Notes under the pieces: model-generated
What the model saw: only the letters and a program-made list of their open reading frames with translations
Told to the model about the DNA's origin: nothing
Databases searched by the model: none
Made by a program: the position numbers and the translations under genes
In this document: positions 4,506 through 43,308 of the stretch, piece by piece
How positions within the stretch are numbered: the stretch's first letter is position 1
Layout of the letters: the number at the start of each line of letters is the position of its first letter
NCBI GenBank assembly: GCA_902388455.1
Contig: CABMPD010000004.1
Span: forward strand, 62,001 to 126,000
Direction of reading: 5' to 3'
DNA: 64,000 nt
Origin: an uncultured Alistipes sp.
GTDB lineage: Bacteria > Bacteroidota > Bacteroidia > Bacteroidales > UBA932

Positions 4506-4523
4506 GATTTGTGTCAGATGCTG

Positions 4524-5762: not shown

Positions 5763-6703
5763 TTCTCTTCTTTGGCGACAGTATTGACCGGCTTGAAGTC
5801 GGGGGTGATGAGTCGGGATATGCGCTTGAGGTCTGATTTCAGGAAGCCGGGCCCTTTTTTGGGTGTGAGCCTGTGCCGCTTCCAGTAGAGCAGCTCGTAT
5901 GTGTCCGCGCTGATAATCATTTTGTAGCAGAAAGCCTTGCCGTAGATTTCAGACGGAGCGACAACCAGGGATACCATAGTCCTCGGCGTGCCTTCAGTCA
6001 ATGCTTTGTCTATGTCATCCTGCGGGACTTCGTCAGCCCGTCCCCGGAACATACGCTCGAACTCCTGCATGGCCGGCCGGTAAGCCAGGTCCCCTTTGCG
6101 GAAGAGGACTTTGGTACTGCGGCTTTTCTCGAAAGCTCCTGTCTGGATTGCGCCGTTCTTGAACGGGTAAATCCTGCCGTCGACTATTTTCTGCAGATAG
6201 TTCTGAATGATATTCATGTAAGCCGGCAGGTAAGAGTATATGCGGTCGCTGTTGTCATTCTCAGGGAAAAGAGGAAGTGCTATGAGTTCCGGCATGGCGG
6301 AAATATCGTCTGATGCCTTTTCATTACCTTTAAGAAAGCATATAAACTCCATTGCGGGGTCGTTTTCGCTGCGGTGCATTTTGTCCAGTCGCATCAGAAA
6401 GTAGTAATTGGTGTCGGTCTTGATACGGTCAAACTCTTCGTAGTCGCAGAACTCGAAGGGGGAGATGTTCCAGCTCTTCTCAACTGCACTCTTGAAAATC
6501 AGGTCTGTCATAGAATTGTCTCCGGCTATGACTACTTTGGTCATCCGGGCCGGTAAGTCTCCGTAATATTCTCTGCCGGACTCGACTTTCTGGTTCTCGA
6601 ACTGTTTGATCTCCATGTCGGGACGGGTCTCCTGTGCTGTCACGGGGAGGGCTGCGAGCAGGGGCAGCAGGAATGCAAAGATTCTTTTCATTTCAGAGTT
6701 CAT
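5759..6703 (-). CDS. Exported protein of unknown function
   Basis: About 314 residues, opening with a clear signal peptide (positive residues then FAFLLPLLAALPVTAQ), so it is periplasmic or outer-membrane-associated. I do not recognise a domain. The body is mixed alpha/beta with a basic C-terminal third and no cysteine motifs. A start at 6691 (MKRIF...) is equally possible; 6703 is the first ATG after the -7 box. It is translationally coupled to the M16 peptidase, which suggests a shared process, but no function is assigned. Confidence 0.7.
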   Translation of the reverse strand: MNSEMKRIFAFLLPLLAALPVTAQETRPDMEIKQFENQKVESGREYYGDLPARMTKVVIAGDNSMTDLIFKSAVEKSWNISPFEFCDYEEFDRIKTDTNYYFLMRLDKMHRSENDPAMEFICFLKGNEKASDDISAMPELIALPLFPENDNSDRIYSYLPAYMNIIQNYLQKIVDGRIYPFKNGAIQTGAFEKSRSTKVLFRKGDLAYRPAMQEFERMFRGRADEVPQDDIDKALTEGTPRTMVSLVVAPSEIYGKAFCYKMIISADTYELLYWKRHRLTPKKGPGFLKSDLKRISRLITPDFKPVNTVAKEEK

Positions 6704-6715
6704 ATTAAATTTCTG

Positions 6716-6723
6716 CAAAAGTA
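6716..6723 (-). promoter_or_regulatory. -7 element for the secreted protein/M16/O-methyltransferase operon
   Basis: TACTTTTG on the minus strand, followed by C, lies 13 bases before the ATG at 6703. It is divergent from the cmk promoter. Confidence 0.55.
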
Positions 6724-6736
6724 GATAAAATATGTG

Positions 6737-6744
6737 TATTTTTG
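6737..6744 (+). promoter_or_regulatory. -7 element for cmk-ispH
   Basis: TATTTTTG followed by T ends six bases before the cmk ATG at 6750. The predicted transcription start therefore falls on or beside the start codon. Confidence 0.55.
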
Positions 6745-6749
6745 TACTT

Positions 6750-7463
6750 ATGACTTCACCTATTATCATTGCCGTCGACGGTTACTCTTCCACGGGAAAG
6801 AGCACATTCGCCAAAGCTATAGCGAAAGAGCTGGGCTACATCTACATTGATACCGGAGCCATGTACCGGGCCGTAACCCTTCTGGCTCTTAGGAATGGAC
6901 TTGTATCCAAAAATAATACCATAGAACCGGACAGCCTGAGTGAAATGCTGTCCCGAGGCTCCTGTCCGGTGGATATATCATTCAGAACTTCAGGTCCGGG
7001 CGGAGCCAGTGAAACCTGGCTGAACGGGGAAAATGTAGAGCGGGATATCCGTACTCTCGGGATTTCCAAAGTGGTGAGCTATGTGGCCGCTGTTCCGGCT
7101 GTGCGTCACTATGTCGACAGACGTCTGAGGGAGATAGGCTCCCGAAAAGGGGTCGTTATGGACGGTCGTGATATAGGAACTGCCGTATTTCCGGATGCGG
7201 AACTAAAGATATTCATGACGGCGAGGCCGGAGGTGCGGGCCAGGCGCCGTTTTGACGAAATGTGCTCCAAGGGACAGCATCCTTCGTATGAGGAGGTTCT
7301 CAGCAATATCAAGGAACGGGATTATATGGACGAACACCGGCAGACAGCACCCCTGGCCCGTGCTGCTGATGCAGTTCTGTTGGACAACAGCGATATGAGC
7401 GTAGAGGACCAGATTCTGTGGTTCAAGGACTTATTAATGCGGAGGCATCTATGCGGGTACTGA
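6750..7463 (+). CDS. cmk: Cytidylate kinase
   Basis: A 237-residue P-loop kinase converting CMP/dCMP to the diphosphates. The Walker A motif GYSSTGKS is at residues 11-18, DTGAMYR at 34-40, and GRDIGT in the middle of the protein. The start is at 6750 because earlier in-frame codons lie within the promoter box and the family begins just before the P-loop. The 3' end overlaps ispH by 13 bases, so the two genes are co-translated. Confidence 0.95.
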   Translation: MTSPIIIAVDGYSSTGKSTFAKAIAKELGYIYIDTGAMYRAVTLLALRNGLVSKNNTIEPDSLSEMLSRGSCPVDISFRTSGPGGASETWLNGENVERDIRTLGISKVVSYVAAVPAVRHYVDRRLREIGSRKGVVMDGRDIGTAVFPDAELKIFMTARPEVRARRRFDEMCSKGQHPSYEEVLSNIKERDYMDEHRQTAPLARAADAVLLDNSDMSVEDQILWFKDLLMRRHLCGY

Positions 7464-11001: not shown

Positions 11002-12159
11002 ATGAAAGTACTTATCATAGACGACGAGCGGAGCATCCGCAACACTCTCAAGGAGATTCTCGAGTTCGAAGGACATCAGATAACGCTGGCTGAGGACGGA
11101 GCGGCAGGGCTGGAGGCGGCATCCGCCGGCAGTTTCGACGTGATATTCTGCGACATCAAGATGCCCGGAATGGACGGAGTGGAGGTGCTGGACAAGCTCG
11201 CCGAGAGCGGCAACGAGACTCCGGTCGTGATGATTTCGGGCCACGGCTCGATAGATACGGCGGTGGAGTGCATCAAGAAGGGTGCATTCGACTTCATTCA
11301 GAAGCCGCTGGACCTGAACAGGATACTGATTACTCTGAAAAATGCTACGGACAAGGGCTCCCTCGTCCGCGAGACCAAGATCCTCAAGAAGAAGGTCGGC
11401 GGGGTGCAGGAGATTATCGGCGAGTCGCCGGCCATCGTCCGTATCAAGAACATGATAGACCGGGTGGCCCCGACCGACGCCAGGGTGCTCATCACAGGTG
11501 CCAATGGTACCGGAAAAGAACTGGTGGCCAGATGGCTGCACGAGAAGAGCGACAGGGCTTCGATGCCTTTCATCGAGGTCAACTGCGCGGCCATCCCCAG
11601 CGAGCTGATAGAGAGCGAGCTCTTCGGTCACGAGAAGGGCGCCTTCACCGGGGCTCAGAAACAGCATAAGGGCAAGTTCGAGCAGGCCGACGGCGGCACT
11701 CTCTTCCTGGACGAGATAGGCGACATGTCCCTCGCGGCCCAGGCCAAGGTCCTCCGCGTGCTGCAGGAGAACAAGCTGACCAAGGTCGGCGGCGACAAGG
11801 ACATCACCGTGAATGTCAGGGTCGTGGCCGCCACCAACAAGAATCTGAAGGAGGAAATCGAGAAAGGCAACTTCCGCGAGGACCTCTACCACCGTATCAG
11901 CGTCATCGTCATCCGCGTGCCGTCACTGGCCGAGAGAAGGGAAGATATTCCGATGCTTATCGACCATTTTATCAAGCAGATATCCCAGGAGTCCGGCAAG
12001 CCGGTCAAGGAGATAGACGCCGACGCCGTCGAGGAACTCTGCAACCACGCCTGGAGCGGCAACATCCGCGAGCTGCGCAACGTCGTGGAGCGTCTGCTGA
12101 TACTTTCCAATGCCCGCATCACTAAGGACGACGTGATGATGTTCGCCCTGCCCAACTAG
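11002..12159 (+). CDS. Sigma54-dependent response regulator without DNA-binding domain
   Basis: 385 residues. There is an N-terminal receiver domain (DDE near 7-9, phospho-acceptor Asp in FCDIKMPG, then Lys in QKPLDL). A sigma54 AAA+ domain follows, with Walker A GANGTGKE, the sigma54-contact loop GAFTGA, and the arginine region WSGNIRELRNVVERL. The protein stops about 20 residues after that point, so the Fis-type helix-turn-helix present in NtrC (about 470 aa) is missing. HTH-less activators such as FlgR act from solution. Its tail-to-tail neighbour is an NtrY-like kinase, the likely partner. The start at 11002 opens with KVLIIDDE. Confidence 0.9.
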   Translation: MKVLIIDDERSIRNTLKEILEFEGHQITLAEDGAAGLEAASAGSFDVIFCDIKMPGMDGVEVLDKLAESGNETPVVMISGHGSIDTAVECIKKGAFDFIQKPLDLNRILITLKNATDKGSLVRETKILKKKVGGVQEIIGESPAIVRIKNMIDRVAPTDARVLITGANGTGKELVARWLHEKSDRASMPFIEVNCAAIPSELIESELFGHEKGAFTGAQKQHKGKFEQADGGTLFLDEIGDMSLAAQAKVLRVLQENKLTKVGGDKDITVNVRVVAATNKNLKEEIEKGNFREDLYHRISVIVIRVPSLAERREDIPMLIDHFIKQISQESGKPVKEIDADAVEELCNHAWSGNIRELRNVVERLLILSNARITKDDVMMFALPN

Positions 12160-15100
12160 GTGTAGTCCTCAGAAACCTCGGTGTGCATCGGCAGTATTAC
12201 GGTGAAGTCCGCACCACCCAGTTTCTGCGATTTGGAGTAGTAGATGTCGCCGTGACTTTGGGTGACGATGCTCTTGCAGATGGCCAGACCGAGGCCGGAA
12301 CCTTTGGTTTTGGTAGTGAAGTTAGGGCTGAACAGTTTGCCCAGGTTCTCTTCTGAGACACCGCTGCCGTTGTCCTCGATGTCTATGCGGTATCGGCCAG
12401 TAGACATTATGAGCGTAATGTCTATGATGCCTTGTTCCTTGCTTTCCACTGCCTGGATAGCATTGGTTATCAGATTTACGAATGTCCTTGTTATCTGCTC
12501 TTTTCTTGCCAGGACGACGGCTTTTTCTACGGTACGGTGGAAATTCATCTGTATGTTGTCCCGGTTGTCGAACAGGATTTTCTGTTCTGTGAGAATTTCC
12601 ACTAGATCGACTTCCGTTTCTTCTTCTTTGTAGAGCTTGGCGAAGCTGGAGAACTCGCTGGCCGTGTTGGACAGGATGTCTATCTGCTCTATGAGCGAGG
12701 AGGCGAGGGCCTCGAAGCGGTCCTGCCATTCTGGTCTGCCCTGCATTTTCATGCGCACGAGATGCTGTATGCTCAGTTTCATGGGAGTGAGCGGGTTCTT
12801 GATCTCATGGGCTATCTGGCGGGCCATCTGGCTCCATGCCTGTTCCCTTTCGCTCTGGGCCAGTTCTTTGGCACTGCGGTCGAGGTCATCTATCATCTGG
12901 TTGTAGGTCTTGACGAGCAGACCCAGCTCATCGTCAGCCTTGTAGTTGATATGCCCTACCTTGTGTGTGATGTCCATGGCTTGCATGTTGCGGCTGATTT
13001 CTTTCAGTGGCCTGGTGATGGAGTTGGACATGGTGATGCCCACGAAGAGGGCTATGATGATGAGCAGCAGATAGAGGTTGACAATAGCGGCTATAATGGG
13101 AGTTGCGTCATACTCGAAGTTGGTGTCGTTGATGAAGAACGGAATGTTGGCGATAGCCAGCAGAATACCTTTCTCATTATAAATGGGTGTGTAGAGGGAA
13201 TAGTAGGACAGCGTCGAGATATGTTCTTCCTGGATGACCTGCATGCGCTTGTTGTAGACGAGTTCGGAGTAGGCCTCCGAGTTCATCCTGGAACTTGCCA
13301 GGTATTCGTTGAATATATCGGGCTTGGTGGTTCTTATCAGTCGTCCGTGCGGATCGAAAAGATTGATGTCAACCTGTGAATTTTGGGAAACAGCGTTCAT
13401 CGCGCTGAATACTTCGGCAGTATTGAGGGCATCGTAGTTCTCGGTGGTCCGGGTCATTTTTGTCAGTGCTCCTTGTACGGAAAGCATTGCCTCCTCCATC
13501 ATCATATTGTTGTTCCCGTTGATGTAGCCGATGATTATGACGACACTGCCGATGGCCATGAGGATCAAAGCGCCTACCATTGACGCAGTGAGCAGTACTG
13601 TCATTTTCATACGGAATGACCGTTTGGGCCGGAACAGTGATTCGCGGTGCCGTTTACGGAAAAGTCTGGGCAGGGCCATTATCAGCAGACCGAAGGTCAG
13701 CAACACATAGGAGAATGAGATGAGGGTGGGGAAGATGCCTCTGGTCGGCCGGCTGACGGTGATCATGTTAGTACCGGGAAGCTTGTTTATAAACAGTACG
13801 GTTTCATCCAGGAAGTAGTGTGAGAAGCCCTCCTCGAAACTGTAGACGTTGATGGATACCGGGAAATTGTACCTGCCCTGGTGGCTGGTGAGCCTGCCGT
13901 TGTGGTATTTTGCGACGGAGTAAGGGTAACGTACGGTATTGGATGCCGGATTCAGGTTGTCGAGCAGGGCCGACGGATAGCCGATGTTGTCCGAACTGGT
14001 TTTGGAGTCGATTTCCAGATACAGGTCGTAGCGCATGTTGCCGCGGATGATACTGAAAGCGCCGAGATAGCTGATGCTGTTGCGGAAATAGTCCAGATAG
14101 TAGAATGCCGAACTTTCCGACAGTTTCACTCCGTAGTTGTCAATGATGTCCTTGTAGTAGCTGAAGCAGTTGACAGGACCGGAATAGTCTTCTGTTAGAA
14201 TGCTCTGGTAGCGGTTGCAGACAGCAAGGCGTATATCGTATTCAGAAAGTATGTTGAAGAAATACCGTTCTGCGAGCCTGTTGAGTATGGTGTTCTCATA
14301 TTCGGGATTTCCGGTCAGGCGGCGTACCAGAGGATCCGTGATTATGCTCTTCTCTATAGCCTGCAGCTGCATTTCCAGACCAAGGTCCCTTTCTATGGCC
14401 AGGCGGCCGGTGAGGACGCGGATATTCTCGCACTCTTTTTCGAAACTGAAGACGCCTACGCAAGTTGTAATATAAGCGGAGGCCAGCAGTACATATCCCA
14501 GTATCAGCCGTTTGGAATGCCGTTTGCGCTTGTGCCGGTACAGTCCGCTGGCAGTCGGAACGAATATGTTGAGAAGCAGGAGCCCGGCCAGGAACAGTAA
14601 TCCGTACATTATGAATGTTATTATGGTATAGACGGATATGTTGTTGATCTGGAATAGGTCGAAGTTGATGCCCGAGTTGAGGATGAGAGACCGGAATGTA
14701 GTGTGGATGTACGCTCCCAATGCGATGATGGCCAGTCCCAACGAAGCGGTCTTGATGTTGCGTGCCGGTCGGGGAGAGTTCCAGATGTCTTTGATAATAT
14801 TTTTACGGGAAGTATAAGTAGCTATGCAGTAAAGCAGTACGAATATGTGGAATACCATGAGAGCTCCGAAGGAATTGAAATTTCCGTCGGCATACAGCAT
14901 CGGGGAGAACAGCTCTGTGTCCAGAGGTATGTCCTTTGTCATCATGAAGGAGCATAGCTGCATGATGAAAATCCCTCCGAGTGAGAAATACAGTGAGACG
15001 ATGTTTTTATACCGGTTGTGGAAGGACAGAATGGCTATCAGGGCCAGGAGCATGGCTGCCCACCGCATTCCGGACGATCGGTGATTGCTGTTGTTAAGAC

Positions 15101-15752
15101 TCTCATTCTTCAGAAGAGAAAAAACGGGTGTGCCGTCTGAGGCGTATATTACGTTGGTGTCGTCGATATACACCGGGACGGTGGTGTATGAGCCTGTGAG
15201 ACCGATATGCCTGTTGACGGAGTTGTGCAGTACAGTGTTCTCGGAAGTGTACTGCGTCATAACCTCTATTGCTCCTATTATCCGGATATTGTCCTTGTAG
15301 AATGTTTTTACGATATACCAGGAGTTGCCGAGATTGACATACTGTACACCGTCTTCCAAAAATGCCAGGGGAAGATTGAACATGTTCCGGTTGTGCAGAT
15401 CGTGGATGCGGTACCATGAGGAGGAAACAGAAATATCGTCGTTGCTGATAGGAAATGTGTTGGCCCAGCTTTGAAGTTTTCCTCCCACGTAGCGGTAGAG
15501 CACCATGTCCTCAGGGAAATCCTCGAATTCCAACCATTCATCAGCAGGTGCGGTAAAAGCTCTGTCGATGTACTTCTGCAGGTTTTTCTCCCGTTTATGA
15601 AGCATTTTCTCCACTCTGTCCACCCTCTTCCAGGAAGATGTGGCGTCCATGTGGAAAAAAGAGAGCAGGAAGCACAACAAAGCAAGTGTCCAGAAAATGG
15701 AAATCCGGTTTCTGGATATTAGTCGCTGTGTATTTTTTAAAAAGGATCTCAT
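12156..15752 (-). CDS. Large NtrY-like sensor histidine kinase
   Basis: 1198 residues, well above the usual size. An N-terminal transmembrane helix (about 16-34) and a first periplasmic region lead to a multi-helix membrane block (about 230-450). A second extracytoplasmic region, helices near 725-755 and 875-900, a HAMP domain (about 900-950), the phospho-acceptor helix HEIKNPLTPM (about 980) and an ATPase domain ending in DNGSG, TTKTKGSGLGL complete it. All catalytic boxes look intact. Its stop overlaps the stop of the convergent response regulator by four bases, so the two form a tail-to-tail two-component pair. It is followed upstream by rlmH, 9 bases away. Confidence 0.88.
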   Translation of the reverse strand: MRSFLKNTQRLISRNRISIFWTLALLCFLLSFFHMDATSSWKRVDRVEKMLHKREKNLQKYIDRAFTAPADEWLEFEDFPEDMVLYRYVGGKLQSWANTFPISNDDISVSSSWYRIHDLHNRNMFNLPLAFLEDGVQYVNLGNSWYIVKTFYKDNIRIIGAIEVMTQYTSENTVLHNSVNRHIGLTGSYTTVPVYIDDTNVIYASDGTPVFSLLKNESLNNSNHRSSGMRWAAMLLALIAILSFHNRYKNIVSLYFSLGGIFIMQLCSFMMTKDIPLDTELFSPMLYADGNFNSFGALMVFHIFVLLYCIATYTSRKNIIKDIWNSPRPARNIKTASLGLAIIALGAYIHTTFRSLILNSGINFDLFQINNISVYTIITFIMYGLLFLAGLLLLNIFVPTASGLYRHKRKRHSKRLILGYVLLASAYITTCVGVFSFEKECENIRVLTGRLAIERDLGLEMQLQAIEKSIITDPLVRRLTGNPEYENTILNRLAERYFFNILSEYDIRLAVCNRYQSILTEDYSGPVNCFSYYKDIIDNYGVKLSESSAFYYLDYFRNSISYLGAFSIIRGNMRYDLYLEIDSKTSSDNIGYPSALLDNLNPASNTVRYPYSVAKYHNGRLTSHQGRYNFPVSINVYSFEEGFSHYFLDETVLFINKLPGTNMITVSRPTRGIFPTLISFSYVLLTFGLLIMALPRLFRKRHRESLFRPKRSFRMKMTVLLTASMVGALILMAIGSVVIIIGYINGNNNMMMEEAMLSVQGALTKMTRTTENYDALNTAEVFSAMNAVSQNSQVDINLFDPHGRLIRTTKPDIFNEYLASSRMNSEAYSELVYNKRMQVIQEEHISTLSYYSLYTPIYNEKGILLAIANIPFFINDTNFEYDATPIIAAIVNLYLLLIIIALFVGITMSNSITRPLKEISRNMQAMDITHKVGHINYKADDELGLLVKTYNQMIDDLDRSAKELAQSEREQAWSQMARQIAHEIKNPLTPMKLSIQHLVRMKMQGRPEWQDRFEALASSLIEQIDILSNTASEFSSFAKLYKEEETEVDLVEILTEQKILFDNRDNIQMNFHRTVEKAVVLARKEQITRTFVNLITNAIQAVESKEQGIIDITLIMSTGRYRIDIEDNGSGVSEENLGKLFSPNFTTKTKGSGLGLAICKSIVTQSHGDIYYSKSQKLGGADFTVILPMHTEVSEDYT

Positions 15753-29337: not shown

Positions 29338-32300
29338 ATGAGTACTGAAAAAGTTGTGATGCCCGACTATCTGTTCGAGGCAAGCTGGGAAGTCTGCAAT
29401 AAGGTAGGAGGCATCCATACCGTATTGGCTACCAAGTCCCTTAACCTTTCCGAGGAACTGGGCAGCAATCATATTCATATCGGACCGGACGTATGGGTGG
29501 ATACCGCCCAGAATCCGGAATTTACCGAGGATCCCATCCTCTTCCGTACCTGGAGGATCGCCGCCGCCGAGGAGGGGCTGCGCCTGAGAGTGGGAAGGTG
29601 GAACATCCCGGGAAAGCCGATTGCCATCCTCGTGGATTTCTCCCAGTTCATTTCCAGGAAAAATGAGATATTCACATCCCTATGGGAGAAGTTCAAACTG
29701 GACTCCCTCTCCGGACAGTGGGACTTTATCGAGGCTGCTCTTTTCGGTTATGCCGCCGGAAAAGTGATAGAGAGTTTCGTACAGTTCAACCTCCAGCCTC
29801 ATCACCGCGTAGTGGCTCAGTTCCACGAGTGGATGACCGGAGCAGGTATCCTCTATCTCAAGAGTATCAATGCCCATATAGGCACCATCTTCACCACTCA
29901 CGCCACAGTCGTGGGCCGCTGCCTGGCATGCAACAATGTGCCTCTGTACGAGACACTGAACAACTGCAACGCAGATGAAAAGGCCCGCTACTACAACGTA
30001 ATGGCCAAGCACTCTCTCGAGAGATGTGCAGCCGTCAACGCAGACGTATTCACTACTGTCAGTGACATCACAGCCACCGAGTGCGAGCGTCTGCTGGGCA
30101 AGAAGGTGGACCTGATTACTCCCAACGGTTTTGACAACAGCATACTGCCTCCCAAGGATAAGAAAGCTGAGGCTGTAGCCGAAGGACGCGGCATTCTTCT
30201 GGACTTGGCTTCGGCCATGTGCGGGGAGGATTGCTCGGATGCTTTCATTATGGGTATCAGCGGTCGTTATGAGTATAAGAACAAGGGTATAGACGCATAC
30301 CTGGACGTGCTCGGCAGGCTTGCCAACTCCAGTTACAACGGCCGGACGGTGGTCGCTTTCATAATGGTGCCTGCCGGTCATAACGGTCCGGACAAGGACT
30401 TGACGGCAAAACTCTCACGTGACGGTGCGAACTCCAGCTATCAGTGTCTTAGCACCCATGTCCTCAATGAGCCGGGCAGTGACATTATCCTTAATAGAAT
30501 GAAGGCACTGGGACTGGTCAACCGTCCCGGAAGCAAGGTCAAGGTCATATATGTGCCTTCGTACCTCAATGGAGATGACGGTATCCTGAACCGGAAGTAC
30601 TATGACCTGCTGATGGCAATGGACCTGACAGTATTCCCGTCATACTACGAGCCGTGGGGATATACTCCTCTGGAGTCTCTGGCGTTCGGTGTACCTACTG
30701 TAACTACGACACTGGCCGGTTTCGGCCTTTGGGTACGCAGCCATTACAACGCGGCTCATCCCTCGATAACCATTGTGCCCCGCAATGACTCCAACTATGA
30801 TCAGGTGGTGGACACTGTTCTCAAGCAGGTCATAGAGATGACTCAGCTCTCTCCCGATGCAATGGAACTCTGCCGTGCAAATGCCGTGGAGGTATCGGAG
30901 ATTGCATTGTGGAAGCACAATATCTATTATTACAAGCAGGCATACTCCCTGGCTCTGGACCGTGTGGTTCACGCAATGGGTGCTTACCCCGAATATAAGG
31001 AAGACAAGGTGCAGAACTATCACCGTATCGAGGTCAACCGTCCTTCGTGGAGCCGCATTATAGTAACCCGCGTGATGCCCGAGAGGCTCCGCTACCTGGA
31101 CATCATCTCCAAGAACCTGTGGTGGTGCTGGAACCAGGAAGCCATGGACCTGTTCATGAGCATCAATCCAGACCTGTGGAAGAAGTGCGAGAAGAACCCC
31201 ATCGCCCTGCTCGACCGTCTGACCCTCGACGATTACAGGAGGCTGGAGGCCGACACCGACTTCCTTGCCCGTCTGGATGCCGTTACGGAGATATTCAAGA
31301 CCTATATGGAGGGAAAGAACGACCGTCCCTCTCCCTCGATAGCCTATTTCAGCATGGAGTACGGCCTGGACACTTCCCTGAAAATCTATTCGGGAGGTCT
31401 GGGTATCCTTGCCGGTGACTATCTCAAGGAGTCTAGCGATATGAGGGTCAAAATGACCGGTATAGGTCTGCTCTACCGCTACGGATATTTCAGCCAGAGA
31501 CTGACTGCACAGGGAGACCAAGTGGCCGATTACGAGCCTCAGGACTTCTTCAAGATTCCGGCCATGCCCGTCAGGGACGAGAACGGCAACTGGAAGATGG
31601 TGTCGATAGTCTTCCCTGGACGTACAGTGCACGCGAAGATATGGAGGGTGGACGTAGGACGTACCGAACTCTACCTGCTCGATACTGACTTCGAGGACAA
31701 CCTGCCCGAGGACCGTCAGATTACCCACCATCTCTACGGAGGTGACTGGGAGAACCGTCTGAAGCAGGAGCTCCTGCTGGGTATCGGCGGTATCAGGGCC
31801 CTGCGTACCCTCGGTATCCAGTGCGATATCTATCACTGCAACGAGGGACACGCCGCCTTTATCGGACTTGAGCGCCTGCGCGAGTATGTGGCTGCCGGAT
31901 ACACTTACAGTGAGGCGGTCGAGCTGGTAAGGTGCTCGTCACTGTTTACTACCCATACACCTGTGCCTGCAGGACATGATGCATTCAGCGAGGATCTGCT
32001 GAGAACCTATATGAACCACTATCCCCAGAGGATGAAGATAGACTGGGAGACCATGATGGCCCTCGGCAAGATCAATCCTCTGGACCATAACGAGAAGTTT
32101 TCAATGAGCAACCTCGCCTGCAACCTCTCCCAGGAGGTCAACGGTGTAAGCTGGATGCACGGCAAGGTCAGCCAGCAGATACTCGGAGGTCTGTGGCCCG
32201 GCTATCTGCCCGAGGAGCTGCATATCGGATATGTGACCAACGGAGTACACTATCCCACATGGACCGCTCCTCAGTGGAAAGAGATTCACGCCAAGGTCTT

Positions 32301-33579
32301 CGGCGCCGACTTCGCCGCCCACAAATACGACAAGAAATGCTTCGACGGCATCTACTCGGTGGACGACAAGGTCATCTGGAATGTGCGCAGTGAGCTCCGC
32401 GCCAGGATGATAGAGGTGGTTAAGAAACGCATTTCCAACACCGATATCTCCAGTCACTACTCGCCTCACCAGATAGTAACCATCATGGACACCCTGCGAA
32501 GCGACGTGCTGACCATCGGCTTCGCCCGCCGCTTCGCCACCTATAAGAGAGCTCATCTGCTCTTCAGGGATCTGGACCGTCTCAACGAGATAATCAACGA
32601 TCCCGAGCATCCTGTACAGTTCATTTTTGCCGGAAAGGCTCATCCTGCCGATAAAGCAGGTCAGGACCTCATCAAGCGTATTGTGGACATCTCCAAGATG
32701 CCTCAGTTCATCGGTAAGATTGTTTTCGTTCCGAACTACGACATGAATCTGGCGAAGGCTCTCGTACAGGGTGTGGACGTGTGGATGAATACCCCGACCC
32801 GTCCTCTCGAGGCTTCCGGTACATCGGGAGAGAAGGCTGCCATGAACGGTGTGATGCACTTCTCCGTGCTTGACGGCTGGTGGATTGAAGGCTACAAGAA
32901 GGACGCCGGCTGGGCCCTGCCCATGGAGCGTACCTATGAGGACCAGAACTTCCAGGACGAGCTGGACGCCGCCACTATTTATAATATCATCGAGAACGAG
33001 ATTGCTCCCGGCTTCTACGACGGAAGGGATAAGAATACAGGTGTTCCTTCACAGTGGATCAAGTATATCAAGAATACCATAGCACAGGTGGCATCCAACT
33101 TCACCACCAACAGGATGCTCAATGACTATCTCGATAAGTACTATATGCCGCTGTATCAGAGGACTCTTAAACTCAATGCCGATGGATGTGCCGTGGCCAA
33201 GGAGATAGCCTTCTGGAAGAAGAACATCCGCCACAGCTGGCAGCACATCGAGATTAAGGACTATGTCCGTCCGACCGATGCCAACGATCAGCCTATGCTC
33301 GGCAAGGAACGTACTTTCGAAGTAGAGCTCTTCCTCGGTGACATCAATCCAAACGACATAGGAGTCGAGCTGGTATGGGCAGAGCAGGACCGCAAGGGCG
33401 TATACCATGTGCGCAAGTGCTTCACCTTCGACTACGAGTCGGGTTCCGATGGCACTGCCCGCTACGTATGCCATCTCGTTCCCACAGCGACAGGAGTATA
33501 CTATCTGACGGCCAGAGTATTCGCCAAGAATGATCTCCTGCCTCACCGTCAGGACCTGGAACTCGTAAGATGGTTGTAG
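29338..33579 (+). CDS. Fused glycogen synthase (GT3) and alpha-glucan phosphorylase (GT35)
   Basis: 1413 residues. Residues 1 to about 560 match the animal/fungal-type GT3 glycogen synthase: ASWEVCNKVGGIHTVL, FHEWMTGAG, TIFTTHATVVGR, TPNGFDNS and PSYYEPWGYTPLES. From about 570 an alpha-glucan phosphorylase follows: a DUF3417-like start (NLWWCWNQEAMDLF), then FSMEYGLDTSLKIYSGGLG, and the pyridoxal-phosphate loop EASGTSGEKAAMNG near 1163, where the lysine is present. Synthesis and phosphorolysis are thus in one polypeptide; both sites look intact. It is the last glucan gene of the operon; its stop overlaps ribF by 10 bases. Confidence 0.93.
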   Translation: MSTEKVVMPDYLFEASWEVCNKVGGIHTVLATKSLNLSEELGSNHIHIGPDVWVDTAQNPEFTEDPILFRTWRIAAAEEGLRLRVGRWNIPGKPIAILVDFSQFISRKNEIFTSLWEKFKLDSLSGQWDFIEAALFGYAAGKVIESFVQFNLQPHHRVVAQFHEWMTGAGILYLKSINAHIGTIFTTHATVVGRCLACNNVPLYETLNNCNADEKARYYNVMAKHSLERCAAVNADVFTTVSDITATECERLLGKKVDLITPNGFDNSILPPKDKKAEAVAEGRGILLDLASAMCGEDCSDAFIMGISGRYEYKNKGIDAYLDVLGRLANSSYNGRTVVAFIMVPAGHNGPDKDLTAKLSRDGANSSYQCLSTHVLNEPGSDIILNRMKALGLVNRPGSKVKVIYVPSYLNGDDGILNRKYYDLLMAMDLTVFPSYYEPWGYTPLESLAFGVPTVTTTLAGFGLWVRSHYNAAHPSITIVPRNDSNYDQVVDTVLKQVIEMTQLSPDAMELCRANAVEVSEIALWKHNIYYYKQAYSLALDRVVHAMGAYPEYKEDKVQNYHRIEVNRPSWSRIIVTRVMPERLRYLDIISKNLWWCWNQEAMDLFMSINPDLWKKCEKNPIALLDRLTLDDYRRLEADTDFLARLDAVTEIFKTYMEGKNDRPSPSIAYFSMEYGLDTSLKIYSGGLGILAGDYLKESSDMRVKMTGIGLLYRYGYFSQRLTAQGDQVADYEPQDFFKIPAMPVRDENGNWKMVSIVFPGRTVHAKIWRVDVGRTELYLLDTDFEDNLPEDRQITHHLYGGDWENRLKQELLLGIGGIRALRTLGIQCDIYHCNEGHAAFIGLERLREYVAAGYTYSEAVELVRCSSLFTTHTPVPAGHDAFSEDLLRTYMNHYPQRMKIDWETMMALGKINPLDHNEKFSMSNLACNLSQEVNGVSWMHGKVSQQILGGLWPGYLPEELHIGYVTNGVHYPTWTAPQWKEIHAKVFGADFAAHKYDKKCFDGIYSVDDKVIWNVRSELRARMIEVVKKRISNTDISSHYSPHQIVTIMDTLRSDVLTIGFARRFATYKRAHLLFRDLDRLNEIINDPEHPVQFIFAGKAHPADKAGQDLIKRIVDISKMPQFIGKIVFVPNYDMNLAKALVQGVDVWMNTPTRPLEASGTSGEKAAMNGVMHFSVLDGWWIEGYKKDAGWALPMERTYEDQNFQDELDAATIYNIIENEIAPGFYDGRDKNTGVPSQWIKYIKNTIAQVASNFTTNRMLNDYLDKYYMPLYQRTLKLNADGCAVAKEIAFWKKNIRHSWQHIEIKDYVRPTDANDQPMLGKERTFEVELFLGDINPNDIGVELVWAEQDRKGVYHVRKCFTFDYESGSDGTARYVCHLVPTATGVYYLTARVFAKNDLLPHRQDLELVRWL

Positions 33580-37093: not shown

Positions 37094-37825
37094 ATGCCGG
37101 TCGGGATGCAGCACTGCCTCCAGTTTGCGGGACGGGTCGGCTGCAATGAATTCCTTAAGATAGAATGGTTCGAAGTACGCTGTGTCTTCGAACCTTTTTT
37201 CTTGCAGGGCCTGGAAAGCAGGGGCTGCCATGTACTCAGCATCGGGGTGAGAGGGAAGGACTATGCACTTGTCGCGGTATTTTTCAGGTATCATGGCTTC
37301 GTATTTGGCTGCACCGTCACCGGTAAATACAATGCGGCTATAACGCTCCAGCTCTTCGGAGAAAGTATCCGGCGTGAGTACGATGGCCGCGGTCTTGGTA
37401 ATCCTGTTTCCGGTAATATCATAGAGGGCTGTATAGACCTCCATTCGGCGGGCGTCTGTCATAGGGACAATCAGAGTGTTTTCAGGGCCGTTTTTTACGG
37501 CATCGTCCTTGAGGGCTCCGTTAGCAATGATTGTCAGGGTTTCTATGCCTATAAGGGGTATTCCGGCTCCGAAGCAGATACCCTTGGCTGTCGATACACC
37601 CACCCTCAGACCGGTGTAGGATCCAGGGCCAGAGCTTACTGCTACTGCTGCAAGTCTGTGTACCTGTGTGTCTGTTTTCTTGAGAACATTCTGAATCATG
37701 GGCGCCAGCCGTGAAGCCTGGCTCCTGGCATCCGGGATATGTTCTGCTGAGAGAATCTGCTCTCCTTCAGCTATGGCCACGGAGCATACGTCTGTGGCGG
37801 TTTCTATGAGTAAAATTCTATTCAT
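37088..37825 (-). CDS. tsaB: tRNA threonylcarbamoyladenosine biosynthesis protein TsaB
   Basis: A 245-residue ASKHA-fold protein with the N-terminal ILLIETATDVCSVAI strand pair and the conserved SSGPGSYTGLRVGVSTAKG motif. It acts as the partner that activates TsaD in making t6A37. The start at 37825 is chosen by homology; the longer frame overlaps the adaptor gene. It overlaps that adaptor gene by 8 bases, so it is translated from the TolC/adaptor message. Confidence 0.94.
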   Translation of the reverse strand: MNRILLIETATDVCSVAIAEGEQILSAEHIPDARSQASRLAPMIQNVLKKTDTQVHRLAAVAVSSGPGSYTGLRVGVSTAKGICFGAGIPLIGIETLTIIANGALKDDAVKNGPENTLIVPMTDARRMEVYTALYDITGNRITKTAAIVLTPDTFSEELERYSRIVFTGDGAAKYEAMIPEKYRDKCIVLPSHPDAEYMAAPAFQALQEKRFEDTAYFEPFYLKEFIAADPSRKLEAVLHPDRHL

Positions 37826-39050
37826 TGTCTGTTGTATTTTCGTTGTTGTCGGTCTGAGGATAGACTTCCATACCGTCCTCAAGTATTTTGCTTATGGTGC
37901 TGTAGGGACCTGTCACGATTTCCACTGTATCGGCAGCGTCCAATCCGGATATGACTTCTATGTTTCCGATGTCCTGAATTCCTGTTGTTACCTGTATTTT
38001 CCTTACGGTTGAGGAAGCTCTGTCAAGAACATAGATGCAGCCATCAGGCGTTACGGCCTGCAGGGGGACAGTCGTGACACTGTCCTTGCGTTCTGTCTCA
38101 ATCTCCACAGATGCAGACATTCCGGGCCTGAAAGGAATGGGGTCATTGGAAAGCAGGTCGGAGTAGGACTCCTGCAGTATCCGGACCTTGACTTCGAAAT
38201 TGGTCACGTCTGTCAGGGCAGAGGTGGTGCTGCTCAGGTTTTTTGCCGAGTTGGCTATCTGTGTGACAACGCCCTTGAAAGTTCTGCCAGGATAGGCATC
38301 GACCTCGATGTCCGCGGTGTCTCCCTTTGTTATGCGGATGATGTCGTTCTCGTTGACATCCACCAAGACTTCCATCATGTCGAAGTCTGCTATTCTGAGC
38401 ATCTCCGTGCCGGCCATCTGTGATGTCCCGACAACTCTCTCGCCTTTCTCAACGCTCAGACTGGATACGATACCGGCTATCGGGGAATATATTACAGTCT
38501 TGGTCAGATTTTCCTCGGCTTCATCAAGGGATGCTACGGCGCTTTCGATATTGTATTCAGCGGCATTGAGCTGCTCGCGGGCCATCTCATATTCTGCGGT
38601 GGATGCCTGAAATTCCTGCAGGGAGATGGCACGCTGTTCATAAAGCTGCTTGTTACGCAAGTAGTTCTGCTCAGCCTGGGTAAAACTGGCTTTCTGCTGC
38701 TGGTACTGTGCTTTGGTGGCATTGAGAGTGGCTGCTGCTCTGTCCCGAAGGGAAAGGTACACATCCTGCTTAATCATAATGATCAGATCTCCACGGCTGA
38801 CACGGTCGCCTTCCTCGACATTCAATTCTATTATTTCTCCCGATACGTCGGGTGATATTTTTACTTCGGTCACCGGATGAATCTTGCCGTTGGCCGGAAT
38901 CCTTTCAATTATAGTGCCTGTGACCGGCCGTCCTACGGTGACCGGCTCGCCGTGCTCTGGATAGAGTATCGCATATACCACTACTGCAGCCAGAATAACG
39001 GCAACGGCGGCCAGAAGTCTTTTCAGTCCTTTATTTTTTGTTTTTCTCAT
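37818..39050 (-). CDS. Periplasmic adaptor (membrane fusion) protein, MacA/HlyD-like
   Basis: 410 residues: an N-terminal transmembrane helix (about 10-28), a biotinyl-lipoyl-like half (GKIHPVTEVKISPDVSGEI), a long alpha-hairpin (about 105-185, Gln/Glu/Ala-rich), the second lipoyl half (IYSPIAGIVSSL), and beta-barrel and membrane-proximal domains. It would bridge an inner-membrane transporter to TolC. The usual partner for this subtype is a MacB permease, which is not here; the nearest transporter is the C39-peptidase ABC protein upstream. It is 14 bases after tolC. Confidence 0.88.
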   Translation of the reverse strand: MRKTKNKGLKRLLAAVAVILAAVVVYAILYPEHGEPVTVGRPVTGTIIERIPANGKIHPVTEVKISPDVSGEIIELNVEEGDRVSRGDLIIMIKQDVYLSLRDRAAATLNATKAQYQQQKASFTQAEQNYLRNKQLYEQRAISLQEFQASTAEYEMAREQLNAAEYNIESAVASLDEAEENLTKTVIYSPIAGIVSSLSVEKGERVVGTSQMAGTEMLRIADFDMMEVLVDVNENDIIRITKGDTADIEVDAYPGRTFKGVVTQIANSAKNLSSTTSALTDVTNFEVKVRILQESYSDLLSNDPIPFRPGMSASVEIETERKDSVTTVPLQAVTPDGCIYVLDRASSTVRKIQVTTGIQDIGNIEVISGLDAADTVEIVTGPYSTISKILEDGMEVYPQTDNNENTTDNE

Positions 39051-39064: not shown

Positions 39065-40411
39065 TTAAAGGGTGAGGGGGATTCCTTTATAATAGTCTAT
39101 TATCTTGAGCTGGAAAACAAATTGATACTTAGCCTGTATGTATTCCGAACGGGCTTTGAGGAGGTTAGTTCTGGCTACGGTATAATCGGTGCCGTTGAGG
39201 ATGCCTGCATCGAATTTTTCCTGAACGTAGCGCATGGATTCTTCCATGGATGCTACATTGGCCAGGGCTGCCTCCATCTGCCTGAAGAAGGTCTCTGCCT
39301 CAGTTACTGCTGTCTGTATGTCCTTGTAGAGAGTCTGTTGCTTCATCTGCAGGTCTATCTCCAGGTTTTGTCGTGTGAGCTTGGCATTCTTGACGTTGGT
39401 CCTGACGTTCCAGTTGTTGAATATCGGGATACTGAGGCCGATGCTTACGGATGGATTGATATTGTCCCTGAACTGTTCGAAAAAGGGATATGTGCTTCCG
39501 TCCGGAGCAAAGGAGGAAGAGCTGTAGAATGTGCCGTAGCTGGCTGACAGAGATATTTTGGGATAGTACTGTCCTTGAGCCGTTTTAAGATCCAGGTCTC
39601 CTTTTTCCAGAGCCAGTCGGGCGCTCTGTATTACCGGCATGGACATGGCAGAGGCATAGATGGCGTCTGTATTGTCCGGTGTATAAGCCGTCAGAACGTG
39701 ACTTATGTCTGGAACAGCCACTTGAAACTCTTTGCTGTACGGTAAATCAAGAAGTTGCTGGAGGGCCAGCGTGTTGGTGGTCAGTTGATTCTGGGCAGTT
39801 ACTACTTGGACGCGCTCGGATGCCAGCTGGGATTCTAGCTCCAGCAATGAAGAGTAGGGCTGGCTACCTGCCTCTACAAGGAGTACGGTTCTGTCCCGCT
39901 GTTCGGATACGGACCGCATGCTTTCCTGTGCGGCGGACAGTATTTCTTGTGAAAGCAGTATCTGCAGATAGCTGCGTACTATGGATATGGAAATCTCATC
40001 CTTCAGTCTCTCCACTTCCTGTATGGATATTTCCAGATTTTTCCGTGAACTGCGCAGGCTGTTGAGCTTGGAAAGTCCGTCAAGCAGGTATATGGATGCG
40101 TTGACAGATGCACTTGTGCTCTGTGAAAGCTTGTTGCGGATAATTTCCAGATTCTGCAGGTCTACGGACCGGCCCCAGTTGAAATTGTGCCCCAGCGATG
40201 CGTTTACACCAGGGATAAAGTCCAGTTTGTCCTGAAGCAGCTGGTTCTCACTGCGGGATACTTCTATGCTCTGTTGCCGGATGCTGAGATTGTTGGCCCA
40301 GGCATATTCTATGCATCGGTCCAAGGTCCAGATATCCTGGGCTTTGCCGGTGATGGAAAAGAGTGTGAGCAGTAAGAGCGCTGCGGTATGTTGTATTGTA
40401 GTGGCCTGCAT
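39065..40411 (-). CDS. TolC family outer membrane efflux protein
   Basis: 448 residues with a signal peptide ending in GKAQ and two repeated OEP halves of long helices and strands, as in TolC channels. It starts the second transcription unit of the locus, with a -7 box at 40430-40437, and is followed by the adaptor gene. Together with the adaptor and an ABC transporter it would form a type I-like export conduit. Confidence 0.9.
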   Translation of the reverse strand: MQATTIQHTAALLLLTLFSITGKAQDIWTLDRCIEYAWANNLSIRQQSIEVSRSENQLLQDKLDFIPGVNASLGHNFNWGRSVDLQNLEIIRNKLSQSTSASVNASIYLLDGLSKLNSLRSSRKNLEISIQEVERLKDEISISIVRSYLQILLSQEILSAAQESMRSVSEQRDRTVLLVEAGSQPYSSLLELESQLASERVQVVTAQNQLTTNTLALQQLLDLPYSKEFQVAVPDISHVLTAYTPDNTDAIYASAMSMPVIQSARLALEKGDLDLKTAQGQYYPKISLSASYGTFYSSSSFAPDGSTYPFFEQFRDNINPSVSIGLSIPIFNNWNVRTNVKNAKLTRQNLEIDLQMKQQTLYKDIQTAVTEAETFFRQMEAALANVASMEESMRYVQEKFDAGILNGTDYTVARTNLLKARSEYIQAKYQFVFQLKIIDYYKGIPLTL

Positions 40412-40437: not shown

Positions 40438-40453
40438 GAAAAAATAATCTTTG

Positions 40454-40491
40454 AAAAGGTCCGCCGGGGCTGATTCTCTCCTCGGCGGACC
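40454..40491 (-). terminator. Terminator after the two peptide genes
   Basis: A perfect 9-bp stem, GGTCCGCCG (40458-40466) with CGGCGGACC (40483-40491), has a 16-base loop. On the minus strand it is followed by TTTTC. The T run is short, so read-through into tolC is possible. Confidence 0.6.
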
Positions 40492-40508
40492 ATAATCAGG
40501 GAATAAGG

Positions 40509-40685
40509 CTACCAGCAACCGGCGGCCTGAGGATCCCGGTGTTTTCCGGTCAATAAGTCGTAGAGTGCCCTGAGGGCAGCGCCGACAAGGCGTCCCAGCA
40601 TTCTGGCAACCCTGTCTTCAGGTGTTTTTGTCCCGCCCAGGATGTCACATGCCTGGTATCGTTCAATAGCGATGAATTTTTCCAT
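40509..40685 (-). CDS. Double-glycine leader peptide B (putative bacteriocin/pheromone precursor)
   Basis: 58 residues, not reported by a simple long-frame search. The leader is short: it begins MEKFIAIERY, carries a Cys at position 13, and ends DILGG (residues 17-18), the cleavage signal of C39 peptidases. The predicted mature part (40 residues) has net positive charge and an amphipathic helix containing GRLVG, a GxxxG motif, and ends in GCW. The leader start (ME-basic-aromatic-Ile) and Cys13 are shared with peptide A just upstream. The ABC-peptidase gene is in the same unit. Function (toxin or signal) is inferred. Confidence 0.72.
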   Translation of the reverse strand: MEKFIAIERYQACDILGGTKTPEDRVARMLGRLVGAALRALYDLLTGKHRDPQAAGCW

Positions 40686-40700
40686 AACAGACAGTTTTAG

Positions 40701-40886
40701 TTAATTCACAAAAGCATCCACTATGTCCTGTCCGCTCCATCCTTCAATGAAGCCGAGGAGGAACTGGTCAAGGTGATCCTTGAAGAACTTTACGATGCTG
40801 CCCCAGAGGCCGCCGCCGTAGACTGTCGTGCTCAGGTCGGAATTAATGCATTCAAACCCTGCGTACCCGTTAATAATTCTTTCCAT
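40701..40886 (-). CDS. Double-glycine leader peptide A (putative bacteriocin/pheromone precursor)
   Basis: 61 residues. The leader begins MERIINGYAG, has Cys at position 13 and ends TTVYGG (24-25), followed by a third Gly. The predicted mature part (about 36 residues) starts GLWGSIVKFF, is amphipathic and Trp/Phe-rich, and contains GFIEG, a GxxxG motif (45-49). It is close to neutral or slightly acidic, complementing the basic peptide B. It lies 45 bases downstream of the C39-peptidase transporter gene and 15 before peptide B. Two unlike peptides with GxxxG helices, encoded side by side, is the layout of two-peptide class IIb bacteriocins. Confidence 0.75.
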   Translation of the reverse strand: MERIINGYAGFECINSDLSTTVYGGGLWGSIVKFFKDHLDQFLLGFIEGWSGQDIVDAFVN

Positions 40887-40931
40887 GATGTTTGGTTTTA
40901 ATGTTGTGCCGCGGATAAAAGGCGCCGCGGC

Positions 40932-43025
40932 TTACGCCTGTGAATGCGCATTCTTATTGATATCTATAATGTTGTCGGCAATAGTTTCTGCACCTTCCTC
41001 GTGTGATATGAGTATTATGGTTATTCCGTTGTCCCGGAGTGTGCGTACCGTTTTCTCAAGCCTGTCGCGGCTGTCGCTGTCCAGATGGGTGGCAGCTTCG
41101 TCCAGAATCAGAACTTTCGGTTTCCGGTATAGAGCTCTTGCGAGAGCTATCTTCTGACGCTCTCCTCCTGAAAGGCGGCAGGCATGCTCTCCTGTGTGGG
41201 CCATGATTCCGCCGGGGATATTATCCAGCATGGAACTGAGTCCTGCCATAGCGCATACGGCCGCAACTGAGCGGATATCATAGTCTGTGTCGCCCATGAG
41301 GATGTTCTCCAGTATGGTGCCGTCGAAGATGTCGGCTTTCTGAGGAACAATTGAGATATGTTTTCTCCAAATGTCAGGGTGTATGGTCTGAATATCAATG
41401 CCTCCGACAGTTATTTTGCCGCTTTGAGGAGTGTATCCCTTCATCAGCAGGGCGGCGACTGTGCTCTTTCCGCTGCCGTTGGCACCGCGGATCAGATTTA
41501 TTTTGCCCGGGAGTATATCGAAAGAGAGGTTTTCCAGCAGCTGCATCCTGCCTGGAAAGGAGAAGCACAGTCCGACGGCCCTGATGGTGTCTTCACTTCC
41601 GGGAATGAAATCCAGATATTTACCGCTGCTCTCTTCTTCCATATCCAGAATGTCAAAGATTCTTTCAGCGGATATCCTGGCTTCTGTAATTTCTCTGTTG
41701 CTCTCTATCAGCATGACAATCGGGGCAGTGAATACGGATGTGAATGCGTAGAAAGAGACGAGTTCACCCACGCTCAGGCTGGAGTTGAGTACGAGGAATG
41801 CTCCGGCCGTAAGGGTAAGTATATTTATTATCCGGCCGATGACGTCCGATGTGGAAGTCATGGCTGAGGTGAAAATACCTCCTCTGTAAAGAGCTGAGGC
41901 TGTTTGGAAATATTGTCTCTCGATGTGGCGTACTGCCTCGCGTCCTGAATTGAAATATTTGACGGCCCTGGCAGAAGACAGCCACTCTATACTGGTCTGC
42001 TCAAATTTGGCGTTGGCTTCTATGATGCGTCTGTTCAACCGGCTGTTCACTTTGTCCGAGATACGGTAGAGTAGAACGAACAGAGGTGTCAGGCTAAGTG
42101 TCAGCAGTGTGAGCTTCCAGTTGAATGTAAGCAGTATGCACGTGGCGATAATCAGTGTAATGACACTTACGGCTATCAGAAGCAGCCTTCCTGTGATAAA
42201 TGCCCGTATTCGGTAAGCGTCGGAGATGCGGGAGTTGAGCTCTCCGCTGGTCATGGAGTCGAAGAAAGATACAGGCAATGAGAATAATTTGCGGAAGTAA
42301 CTCATGATCAACCTGCAATCTATCTGAACACTGGCTCTTACCAGCAGTGTTGAGCGCATGAATGATATGACCCATGTCAATGCGGTCAGGCATATGAGAA
42401 TTGCGCAGACCGCTCTCAGTGAGCTGCGGTCTTGTGACGGCAGGATGTCGTCTATGATTCTTTGGAGAAATACGGAAGTGCTGAGGGTTGCTGCGATAAA
42501 GGCTGCAGATCCGGCGAGGACCAGGCACATTTCTTTTCTATAATGGAGAAACAGTTCTTTGAACCGGGCCAGAACAGGGGTCCTGTAGTCTCCCTTGCTG
42601 AAAGTAGGGGAGGGGGCTGCTGCTACTATGAATCCGCTCCACTCTTCTTCGAGCTCTCCAAGATCCGTTTTGTGCAGTTTGCCGTCTTCCGGATCCATAA
42701 TGATTGCCTGCGTGTTGTCCATGCTGTATAGGACTACGTAGTGGAGCCAGCCGTTTTTTTTCTGCAAGTGCATAATGACAGGCTTGGCGGCATCCCGCAG
42801 ATCATGGATGCATTTTTCTTTCGCACGAAGCCCCGCTGCGTCCAGTCCCAGTTTGCCGCAGGCGTCGATGATACCCTGCAGTGTGGTGCCGTCCGGCCCT
42901 GTACCGCATACTTCTCTTATTTTTAGCAGCGGCAGTCTGAGCCCGTAATGTGCACATATTGAAGCAACACATGCCGCGGCACAATCGCTTCTGTCATGTT
43001 GTCTGACCTTGATCTCCTTCTTCAT
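40932..43025 (-). CDS. Peptidase C39-containing ABC transporter (peptide cleavage and export)
   Basis: 697 residues. The N-terminal C39 cysteine peptidase (1 to about 140) has the oxyanion Gln9, catalytic Cys15 (in DRSDCAAAC), His95 and Asp111. A six-helix ABC membrane domain follows (about 165-440). The ATPase has Walker A GANGSGKST, signature RLSGGERQ and Walker B LILDEAATHLDS. It should cut substrates after GG and export them. Two GG-leader peptides are encoded directly downstream and a 48-aa membrane protein upstream, which identifies the likely cargo. Confidence 0.95.
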   Translation of the reverse strand: MKKEIKVRQHDRSDCAAACVASICAHYGLRLPLLKIREVCGTGPDGTTLQGIIDACGKLGLDAAGLRAKEKCIHDLRDAAKPVIMHLQKKNGWLHYVVLYSMDNTQAIIMDPEDGKLHKTDLGELEEEWSGFIVAAAPSPTFSKGDYRTPVLARFKELFLHYRKEMCLVLAGSAAFIAATLSTSVFLQRIIDDILPSQDRSSLRAVCAILICLTALTWVISFMRSTLLVRASVQIDCRLIMSYFRKLFSLPVSFFDSMTSGELNSRISDAYRIRAFITGRLLLIAVSVITLIIATCILLTFNWKLTLLTLSLTPLFVLLYRISDKVNSRLNRRIIEANAKFEQTSIEWLSSARAVKYFNSGREAVRHIERQYFQTASALYRGGIFTSAMTSTSDVIGRIINILTLTAGAFLVLNSSLSVGELVSFYAFTSVFTAPIVMLIESNREITEARISAERIFDILDMEEESSGKYLDFIPGSEDTIRAVGLCFSFPGRMQLLENLSFDILPGKINLIRGANGSGKSTVAALLMKGYTPQSGKITVGGIDIQTIHPDIWRKHISIVPQKADIFDGTILENILMGDTDYDIRSVAAVCAMAGLSSMLDNIPGGIMAHTGEHACRLSGGERQKIALARALYRKPKVLILDEAATHLDSDSRDRLEKTVRTLRDNGITIILISHEEGAETIADNIIDINKNAHSQA

Positions 43026-43060
43026 GGCTTACCCCTCCAGAAATTTTTCCAGGATTATAC

Positions 43061-43207
43061 TTAAAAAACAGGAAGCAGAGGAAGCGCTGACAGCAACATT
43101 GTGGCCGTGACAGCTGTAATATACCACAGAAATCTACCCTTGGCCATGGGCGGCAGCATGGTGTCCGCACTGAGGCCGATCTTCTCCTTTAAACTCATTT
43201 CTTCCAT
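43061..43207 (-). CDS. 48-residue membrane protein at the head of the peptide-export unit
   Basis: A short frame beginning MEEMSLKEKIG with a charged 25-residue N-terminal part and one hydrophobic helix (LWYITAVTATMLLSALPLLPVF) reaching the C-terminus. It lies 35 bases before the C39 ABC gene, which has a GGAGGGG sequence before its ATG. It has no GG cleavage site. It could be an immunity or accessory factor, or simply a leader peptide. I do not recognise a family. Confidence 0.55.
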   Translation of the reverse strand: MEEMSLKEKIGLSADTMLPPMAKGRFLWYITAVTATMLLSALPLLPVF

Positions 43208-43233
43208 ATCCGTGTAATTTCATGTTTCAGATG

Positions 43234-43264
43234 CAAAGCTATGAAAATAATTTCACAACTTCAA
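43234..43264 (-). promoter_or_regulatory. Promoter of the peptide-export unit
   Basis: On the minus strand TTG (43264-43262) and TAGCTTTG (43241-43234) are separated by 20 bases, matching the Bacteroidetes -33/-7 arrangement, in an AT-rich 100-bp intergenic region. The -7 box ends 27 bases before the ATG of the 48-aa gene. Confidence 0.65.
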
Positions 43265-43308
43265 CCAAGACTTGAAATAATTTTACGAAAATGGTTGATT
43301 AAAAATGA

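Follow-up and report, generated by a model that had tools for sequence, protein, structure and literature searches.

A conserved pair of small peptide genes beside a processing exporter was found in a 64,000-nucleotide stretch of DNA (the window) from contig CABMPD010000004.1 of an uncultured Alistipes sp. The arrangement is best explained as a chromosomal two-peptide secretion cassette resembling the class IIb bacteriocins, in which two exported helices would pair through GxxxG motifs and permeabilize membranes; a probability of about 0.55 is given to this reading. An earlier note, made from the letters of the window, had proposed a two-peptide antibacterial or signalling system consisting of a 48-amino acid (aa) protein, an ATP-binding cassette (ABC) exporter with a C39 peptidase domain and two peptides with double-glycine (GG) leaders. 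Reading of the open reading frames (ORFs) confirmed all four genes, in their places on the minus strand. What stands of the proposal is a conserved, co-inherited GG pair with GxxxG-type motifs next to a processing exporter, the likeness to class IIb being one of architecture. The parts that carry the argument are:

43061..43207, minus strand: 48-aa protein, a single hydrophobic stretch; candidate for an immunity or accessory role (ORF and relatives)
40932..43025, minus strand: C39-peptidase ABC exporter, 697 aa (Pfam C39, ABC_membrane and ABC_tran)
40701..40886, minus strand: peptide A precursor, 61 aa (leader 40812–40886, mature part 40704–40811)
40740..40754, minus strand: GFIEG, the GxxxG of peptide A, residues 45–49 (alignment)
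40509..40685, minus strand: peptide B precursor, 58 aa (leader 40632–40685, mature part 40512–40631)
40581..40595, minus strand: GRLVG, the GxxxG of peptide B, residues 31–35 (alignment)

Peptides A and B were adjacent in all 84 loci read (in 83 by profile, with B recognised by eye in locus L144), in agreement with the co-occurrence that the earlier note had proposed as a check. These loci are the window and those of 83 genomes, from 12 genera of one Bacteroidales family, eight genomes of the window's genus having been added to 75 from a sample of 149 family genomes. At a profile cut-off of E 0.01, A was matched in 74 and B in 75 of the 149. Three of the B matches (G083, G084 and G117) lie in frames of 345–395 aa and look like chance; reading of the loci recovered A of G086 and B of G102 and G165, which the profiles had missed, and in G095 (L144) a GG frame with GxxxG was recognised by eye right after A. 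Among 59 relatives drawn, each of the 19 genomes belonging to the genus had both peptides and the exporter (in one case a contig-end fragment). The nearest genome has 25% of the window's sampled words in common with it. Both peptides are also kept on six public contigs of metagenome-assembled genomes, three of which are titled Candidatus Coprenecus, a genus that the NCBI taxonomy places in Rikenellaceae incertae sedis; five of the six carry the entire gene row as far as tsaB, and the sixth (L003) ends after B.

In the window this row reads, on the minus strand, cvpA, the 48-aa protein, the exporter, A, B, tolC, an adaptor gene and tsaB, with ileS divergent. The unit drawn in the earlier note holds as far as B, tolC, the adaptor and tsaB on the same strand, after a terminator-like hairpin, having been overlooked, as had the family-wide conservation of the cassette at one site. 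The gene cvpA lies just upstream in 76 of the 84 loci and tsaB downstream in 80; in L048, L055 and L133 the ileS-cvpA side is shifted to the opposite end.

The segments GFIEG and GRLVG, pointed out in the earlier note, are the best-conserved parts of the respective mature peptides. Of 80 distinct mature sequences of each peptide, 77 of A and 70 of B contain an exact GxxxG, far above 2000 shuffles (means 24 and 21, maxima 37 and 32); with one sequence per cluster of <40% identity the counts are 22/23 for A and 13/17 for B, with shuffle means of 5.9 and 4.0. The motif or a small-residue variant of it occurs in 80/80 mature A and 80/80 mature B, counts that carry no chance level. Among 21 aligned A sequences the second G of GG and both GxxxG glycines are invariant, and among 21 aligned B sequences GG and the second GxxxG glycine (G35) are invariant and G31 is kept in at least 90%. 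With 30 more diverse sequences of each, the first motif glycine of A remained invariant and the second was kept in at least 90%, while in B G35 was invariant and G31 was often A. Between genera the peptides have little in common besides the glycines at the cleavage site and, in each, a single motif of GxxxG or GxxxG-like form, the mean distances being 0.73 and 0.78.

The leaders end in GG, with AG in 5/80 B by automatic split, and position −4 is I or V in 58/81 A and V or I in 74/80 B. Cys13 is a leader residue in both window peptides, as had been described, at unequal distance to GG; not all A have it. Mature peptides are mostly without Cys (73/84 A, 58/83 B), and two Cys occur in one A only. 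Peptide B is basic (+3) as claimed, and A, which had been called near neutral, has a mature charge of −3 in the window and a family mean near 0. The hydrophobic moment of B exceeded all 2000 shuffles, which bears out for this peptide the amphipathicity claimed for both. AlphaFold2 predicted a helix at residues 22–46 of window peptide B (mean predicted local distance difference test score, pLDDT, 76; 93 in the block 31–40) and, at low confidence, one at residues 27–59 of window peptide A (mean pLDDT 58).

The two window peptides, to which the scan was confined, had no match at cut-off in Pfam or NCBIfam; weak sub-threshold matches of A were to PSMalpha (17.6 bits, cut-off 23) and LvrD. A search with the B profile returned 220 proteins among 5.8 billion, and among the 120 matches listed every name shown was 'hypothetical protein'.

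The exporter was seen directly upstream of A and B in 82 of the 84 loci; the contigs of the other two (L179 and L180) end there. It carries Walker A/B and signature motifs and the residues Gln9, Cys15, His95 and Asp111, which the earlier note had correctly described as intact and which are retained in 80, 80, 81 and 81 of 81 aligned homologues, one row being gapped at the first two. Its best solved relatives are 4ry2, an 'ABC-type bacteriocin transporter' (E 5e-105), and ComA. Matches of the exporter to PADLOC defence models were discarded as Walker-motif matches without meaning.

In a specificity control, a GG filter applied to 20 non-cassette Bacteroidales C39 loci (of 30 fetched, some cut by contig ends), 19 from other families and one the second C39 locus of G001, gave three candidates, none with GxxxG, and no pairs, compared with 139 candidates, 124 of them with GxxxG, in 81 cassette loci. 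That second exporter (L301, contig C59) belongs to the nearest genome, and the filter found no GG peptide beside it.

Outside the family, no clear copy of the pair was found in a sample of 344 genomes of the order, from which absence is not claimed. The A profile matched nine of these, four within the family; the five outside are GG-leader or other small frames, and only one locus, L196, combines a C39 exporter with two GG peptides. The B profile matched 43, four within the family; the 39 others were not opened, and nearly all lie in frames of at least 327 aa and are chance-like, the exceptions being of 51 aa (G308) and 39 aa (G473).

Median ratios of nonsynonymous to synonymous substitution rates (dN/dS), from 13 loci of the genus and pairs with dS < 1.5 only, were 0.36 (mature A), 0.37 (mature B), 0.25 and 0.32 (their leaders), 0.27 (48-aa protein) and 0.16–0.21 (exporter domains). 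By these ratios, A and B are under purifying selection. The earlier note had tied its proposal to conserved frames, a kept GG site and coding constraint in related genomes, and all three were found. Pairwise distances, compared across 62 of the 84 loci, were correlated between A and B (r 0.84), exporter and tsaB (0.79), exporter and ileS (0.62), A and ileS (0.53) and B and ileS (0.48), values that none of 500 permutations reached. These correlations support common, mostly vertical descent of A, B, the exporter and their neighbours.

In the class IIb-like reading, the C39 domain of the exporter would cut both precursors after GG, and the exporter would move mature A (36 residues) and mature B (40 residues) out of the cytoplasm, with onward passage probably through an adaptor and a TolC-type channel. 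Outside the cell, helices A and B would pair by their GxxxG faces, and the paired helices may insert into and permeabilize the membranes of bacteria nearby, probably of related kinds, in the manner of class IIb peptides.

GG leaders are found in many class IIb bacteriocins. According to a review (PMC8538875), class IIb peptides have GxxxG or GxxxG-like motifs within helices, linked to helix pairing. The cassette resembles systems of this class such as lactococcin G and plantaricin EF/JK in its adjacent small peptides, GG leaders, C39 exporter and one GxxxG-type motif per peptide. It differs from them in its Gram-negative producer, the tolC and adaptor genes alongside, the lack of a family-model match for the window's A and B, the lack of a universal immunity candidate and vertical inheritance at one site.

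Several observations weigh against the class IIb-like reading. The pair was found in 75 of the 149 family genomes, 74 being without it at this sensitivity; some pairs may have been missed, since in one of the genomes without it (G035) a C39 exporter lies by ileS-cvpA and the contig breaks off in a GG leader. The GG filter gave two or more candidates in only 56 of the 81 cassette loci, and thus missed some pairs. The motif of B is AxxxG in 10/80 mature sequences, and the amphipathicity of A is only marginal, shuffles matching it in 2.8% and 5.7% of cases for two stretches. A strict family limit is opposed by L196 (genome G458 of another family, positions 2891–6780), which has a C39 exporter similar to that of the window (E 1e-130), a neighbouring gene product of 378 aa and a pair of GG peptides, of which the first, like peptide A, has GLADGW at its end; it is possibly a distant form of the pair. 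The tolC and adaptor genes are also found without the cassette, and in four g14 genomes they are not beside it, only diverged relatives occurring elsewhere. In 24 of the 58 loci tested, no ORF of the 48-aa type, the sole candidate for immunity, was found. A weapon would not usually be inherited vertically, and the fixed site, the co-inheritance with neighbours and the dN/dS near 0.36 look more like a core function.

Given that some loci seem to lack an immunity candidate and that weapons are seldom inherited vertically, there is a small but real chance that A and B are directed at the producer itself or at its kin, as signals or cell-surface peptides with a core role in density sensing, the envelope or biofilm. 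The fixed position between cvpA and tsaB, the purifying selection and the co-inheritance with neighbours would fit such a role. Neither the unit nor its conserved neighbours included a recognised sensor kinase or regulator, however, and the pheromone function mentioned in the earlier note thus found no positive support; moreover, two co-conserved GxxxG peptides are atypical of a signal, and the peptides diverge strongly between genera. Of similar, low probability is a vertically inherited helix pair used on self or kin, that is, a core function built from class IIb-like chemistry and a possible source of sporadic weapons. In that case the helices would pair by GxxxG in order to assemble on membranes of their own type or to communicate with them, and the absence of an immunity gene common to all loci would be accounted for as well.

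A surface-retained pair that kills on contact, working like Cdz of Caulobacter crescentus, is doubtful. According to PMC5380434, Cdz too is found in a Gram-negative bacterium and combines a pair of small peptides with type I secretion and a small protein of the membrane. In that source, CdzC and CdzD measure 84–86 aa and have long glycine zippers and a 75% content of small hydrophobic residues, three helices are predicted for the immunity protein CdzI, and the reported Cdz-like systems seem to have been acquired horizontally. In the present peptides, in contrast, an extended zipper (GxxxGxxxG) is rare (5/80 mature A, 1/79 mature B), G/A/V/I make up about a third of the residues (mean fractions 0.33 and 0.35), and the 48-aa protein has one hydrophobic stretch; judged by these features as given there, membership of the Cdz family was rejected. 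It is also improbable that only one of the peptides is the effector, with the other as helper, immunity protein or modulator, or that both are surfactant-like helices acting singly. The acidic A and basic B of the window and the sub-threshold PSMalpha match of A would favour such readings; both peptides, however, have leaders and the same type of motif and vary together, and averaged over the family A has a charge near 0. Chance readily produces short frames, and many stand in the ORF list of the window, but chance or decaying ORFs are ruled out for A and B by frames and motifs conserved across loci and by purifying selection.

Three other kinds of system were compared with the cassette. A C39 ABC exporter, an adaptor and TolC near GG peptides recall the class II microcins. 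In colicin V, a member of that class, a C39 ABC exporter, an adaptor and TolC serve a GG peptide. Export of this type is also mentioned in PMC10352776. The present locus differs from these microcins in its two co-conserved short GxxxG peptides and in the occurrence of tolC and adaptor without the cassette. GG precursors with C39 exporters are likewise known from Bacteroidales clusters for GG-motif ribosomally synthesized and post-translationally modified peptides, which according to PMC10352776 include enzymes for modification; no such enzyme was recognised in the A/B unit. The bacteroidetocins (class IIf), which also belong to Bacteroidales, resemble the cassette in having a C39-type exporter and a peptide with a GG leader. 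As outlined in PMC6671954, these systems consist of a single Cys-containing peptide, a five-helix transmembrane protein and usually a thiol oxidoreductase, whereas here there are two mostly Cys-free peptides, and neither of the latter two proteins was found in the gene row of the window. Membership was rejected: mature bacteroidetocins have two or more Cys, a number reached here by one A only.

In agreement with the earlier note, which knew of no such pair in this group, no paper describing A and B was found in the literature searched, in which some result lists were longer than what was screened. For rumen isolates, 21 predicted two-component clusters are reported in PMC13289728. If the pair kills, it would be a class IIb-like two-peptide antibacterial of Gram-negative gut Bacteroidales, stably inherited throughout whole genera, and its many natural A/B pairs could be used to study GxxxG helix pairing and target choice. 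If it does not kill, this peptide design would have a core, non-weapon use. In either case, combining A of one genus with B of another, from the 83 matched natural pairs, would be a direct test of pair specificity.

The further features of the locus are:

43233..43264, minus strand: promoter-like site before the 48-aa gene (TTG at 43262–43264 and TAGCTTTGC at 43233–43241)
40908..40931, minus strand: 7-bp hairpin directly 3' of the exporter stop codon (genus comparison)
40450..40491, minus strand: terminator-like hairpin and T run 3' of peptide B (sequence)
39065..40411, minus strand: TolC-type outer membrane protein (Pfam OEP)
37818..39050, minus strand: periplasmic adaptor, RND_mfp family (NCBIfam TIGR01730, 178.9 bits against a cut-off of 94.9)

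Both tolC and the adaptor gene were within 77 of the 84 loci read, and in G165 their orthologues lie about 10 kb downstream. A tolC-adaptor-tsaB row without the cassette was seen in four of 16 tsaB loci read (G025, there with cvpA, G065, and G042 and G056 of outgroup families). Most likely, therefore, the cassette joined, or was lost from, an older gene row, and tolC and adaptor were rejected as dedicated parts; a role as the outer exit, as a shared outlet, is plausible. The G025 locus (L244), cvpA-tolC-adaptor-tsaB, is an empty site that would be useful for dating the gain or loss. The annotation of cvpA ('colicin V production') was rejected as a functional link, since this gene adjoins tsaB or tolC without the cassette too.

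A one-helix ORF like the 48-aa protein was present in 17/17 tested loci of the genus and in 34/58 overall, a count made with permissive start codons, so that a few may be chance. The test left out 26 of the 84 loci (22 that failed the exporter-start pattern, two near-duplicates and two without an exporter on the contig). The 48-aa protein had no match in Pfam or NCBIfam; where present, it may have a protective role.

A terminator-like hairpin with a T-rich tail follows B in 16/17 loci of the genus, by a loose test, and is at −12.7 kcal/mol or stronger in 15, both counts being without a shuffled control. The hairpin after the exporter stop is common to 12 of 16 loci of the genus, which were those analysed; the deeper L044, L045, L046 and L070, without this form, were left out. 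Two of its seven base pairs are altered on both sides (4 cells), and its covariation score exceeded 500/500 shuffles, but the two-sided pair count was matched in 35/500. Given these two hairpins, the 48-aa protein, the exporter, A and B may form one transcript with the peptide mRNA set apart. An Rfam scan of the locus gave no match.

Upstream, the form TAnnTTTG of the promoter-like site occurs 5' of the 48-aa gene in 4/13 Coprenecus-genus loci compared with 0.70 expected from shuffles, a weak excess. An inverted repeat (CAACCA...TGGTTG, 43245–43300) overlaps the TTG of this site; its arms show seemingly in-step changes in some relatives, and it is a possible operator.

Elsewhere in the window, a 1413-aa frame (29338–33579) matches glycogen synthase at its start and DUF3417 and phosphorylase later, an apparent fusion, and in a 1198-aa frame (12156–15752) the recognised domain is a histidine-kinase-type ATPase at the C-terminal end only.

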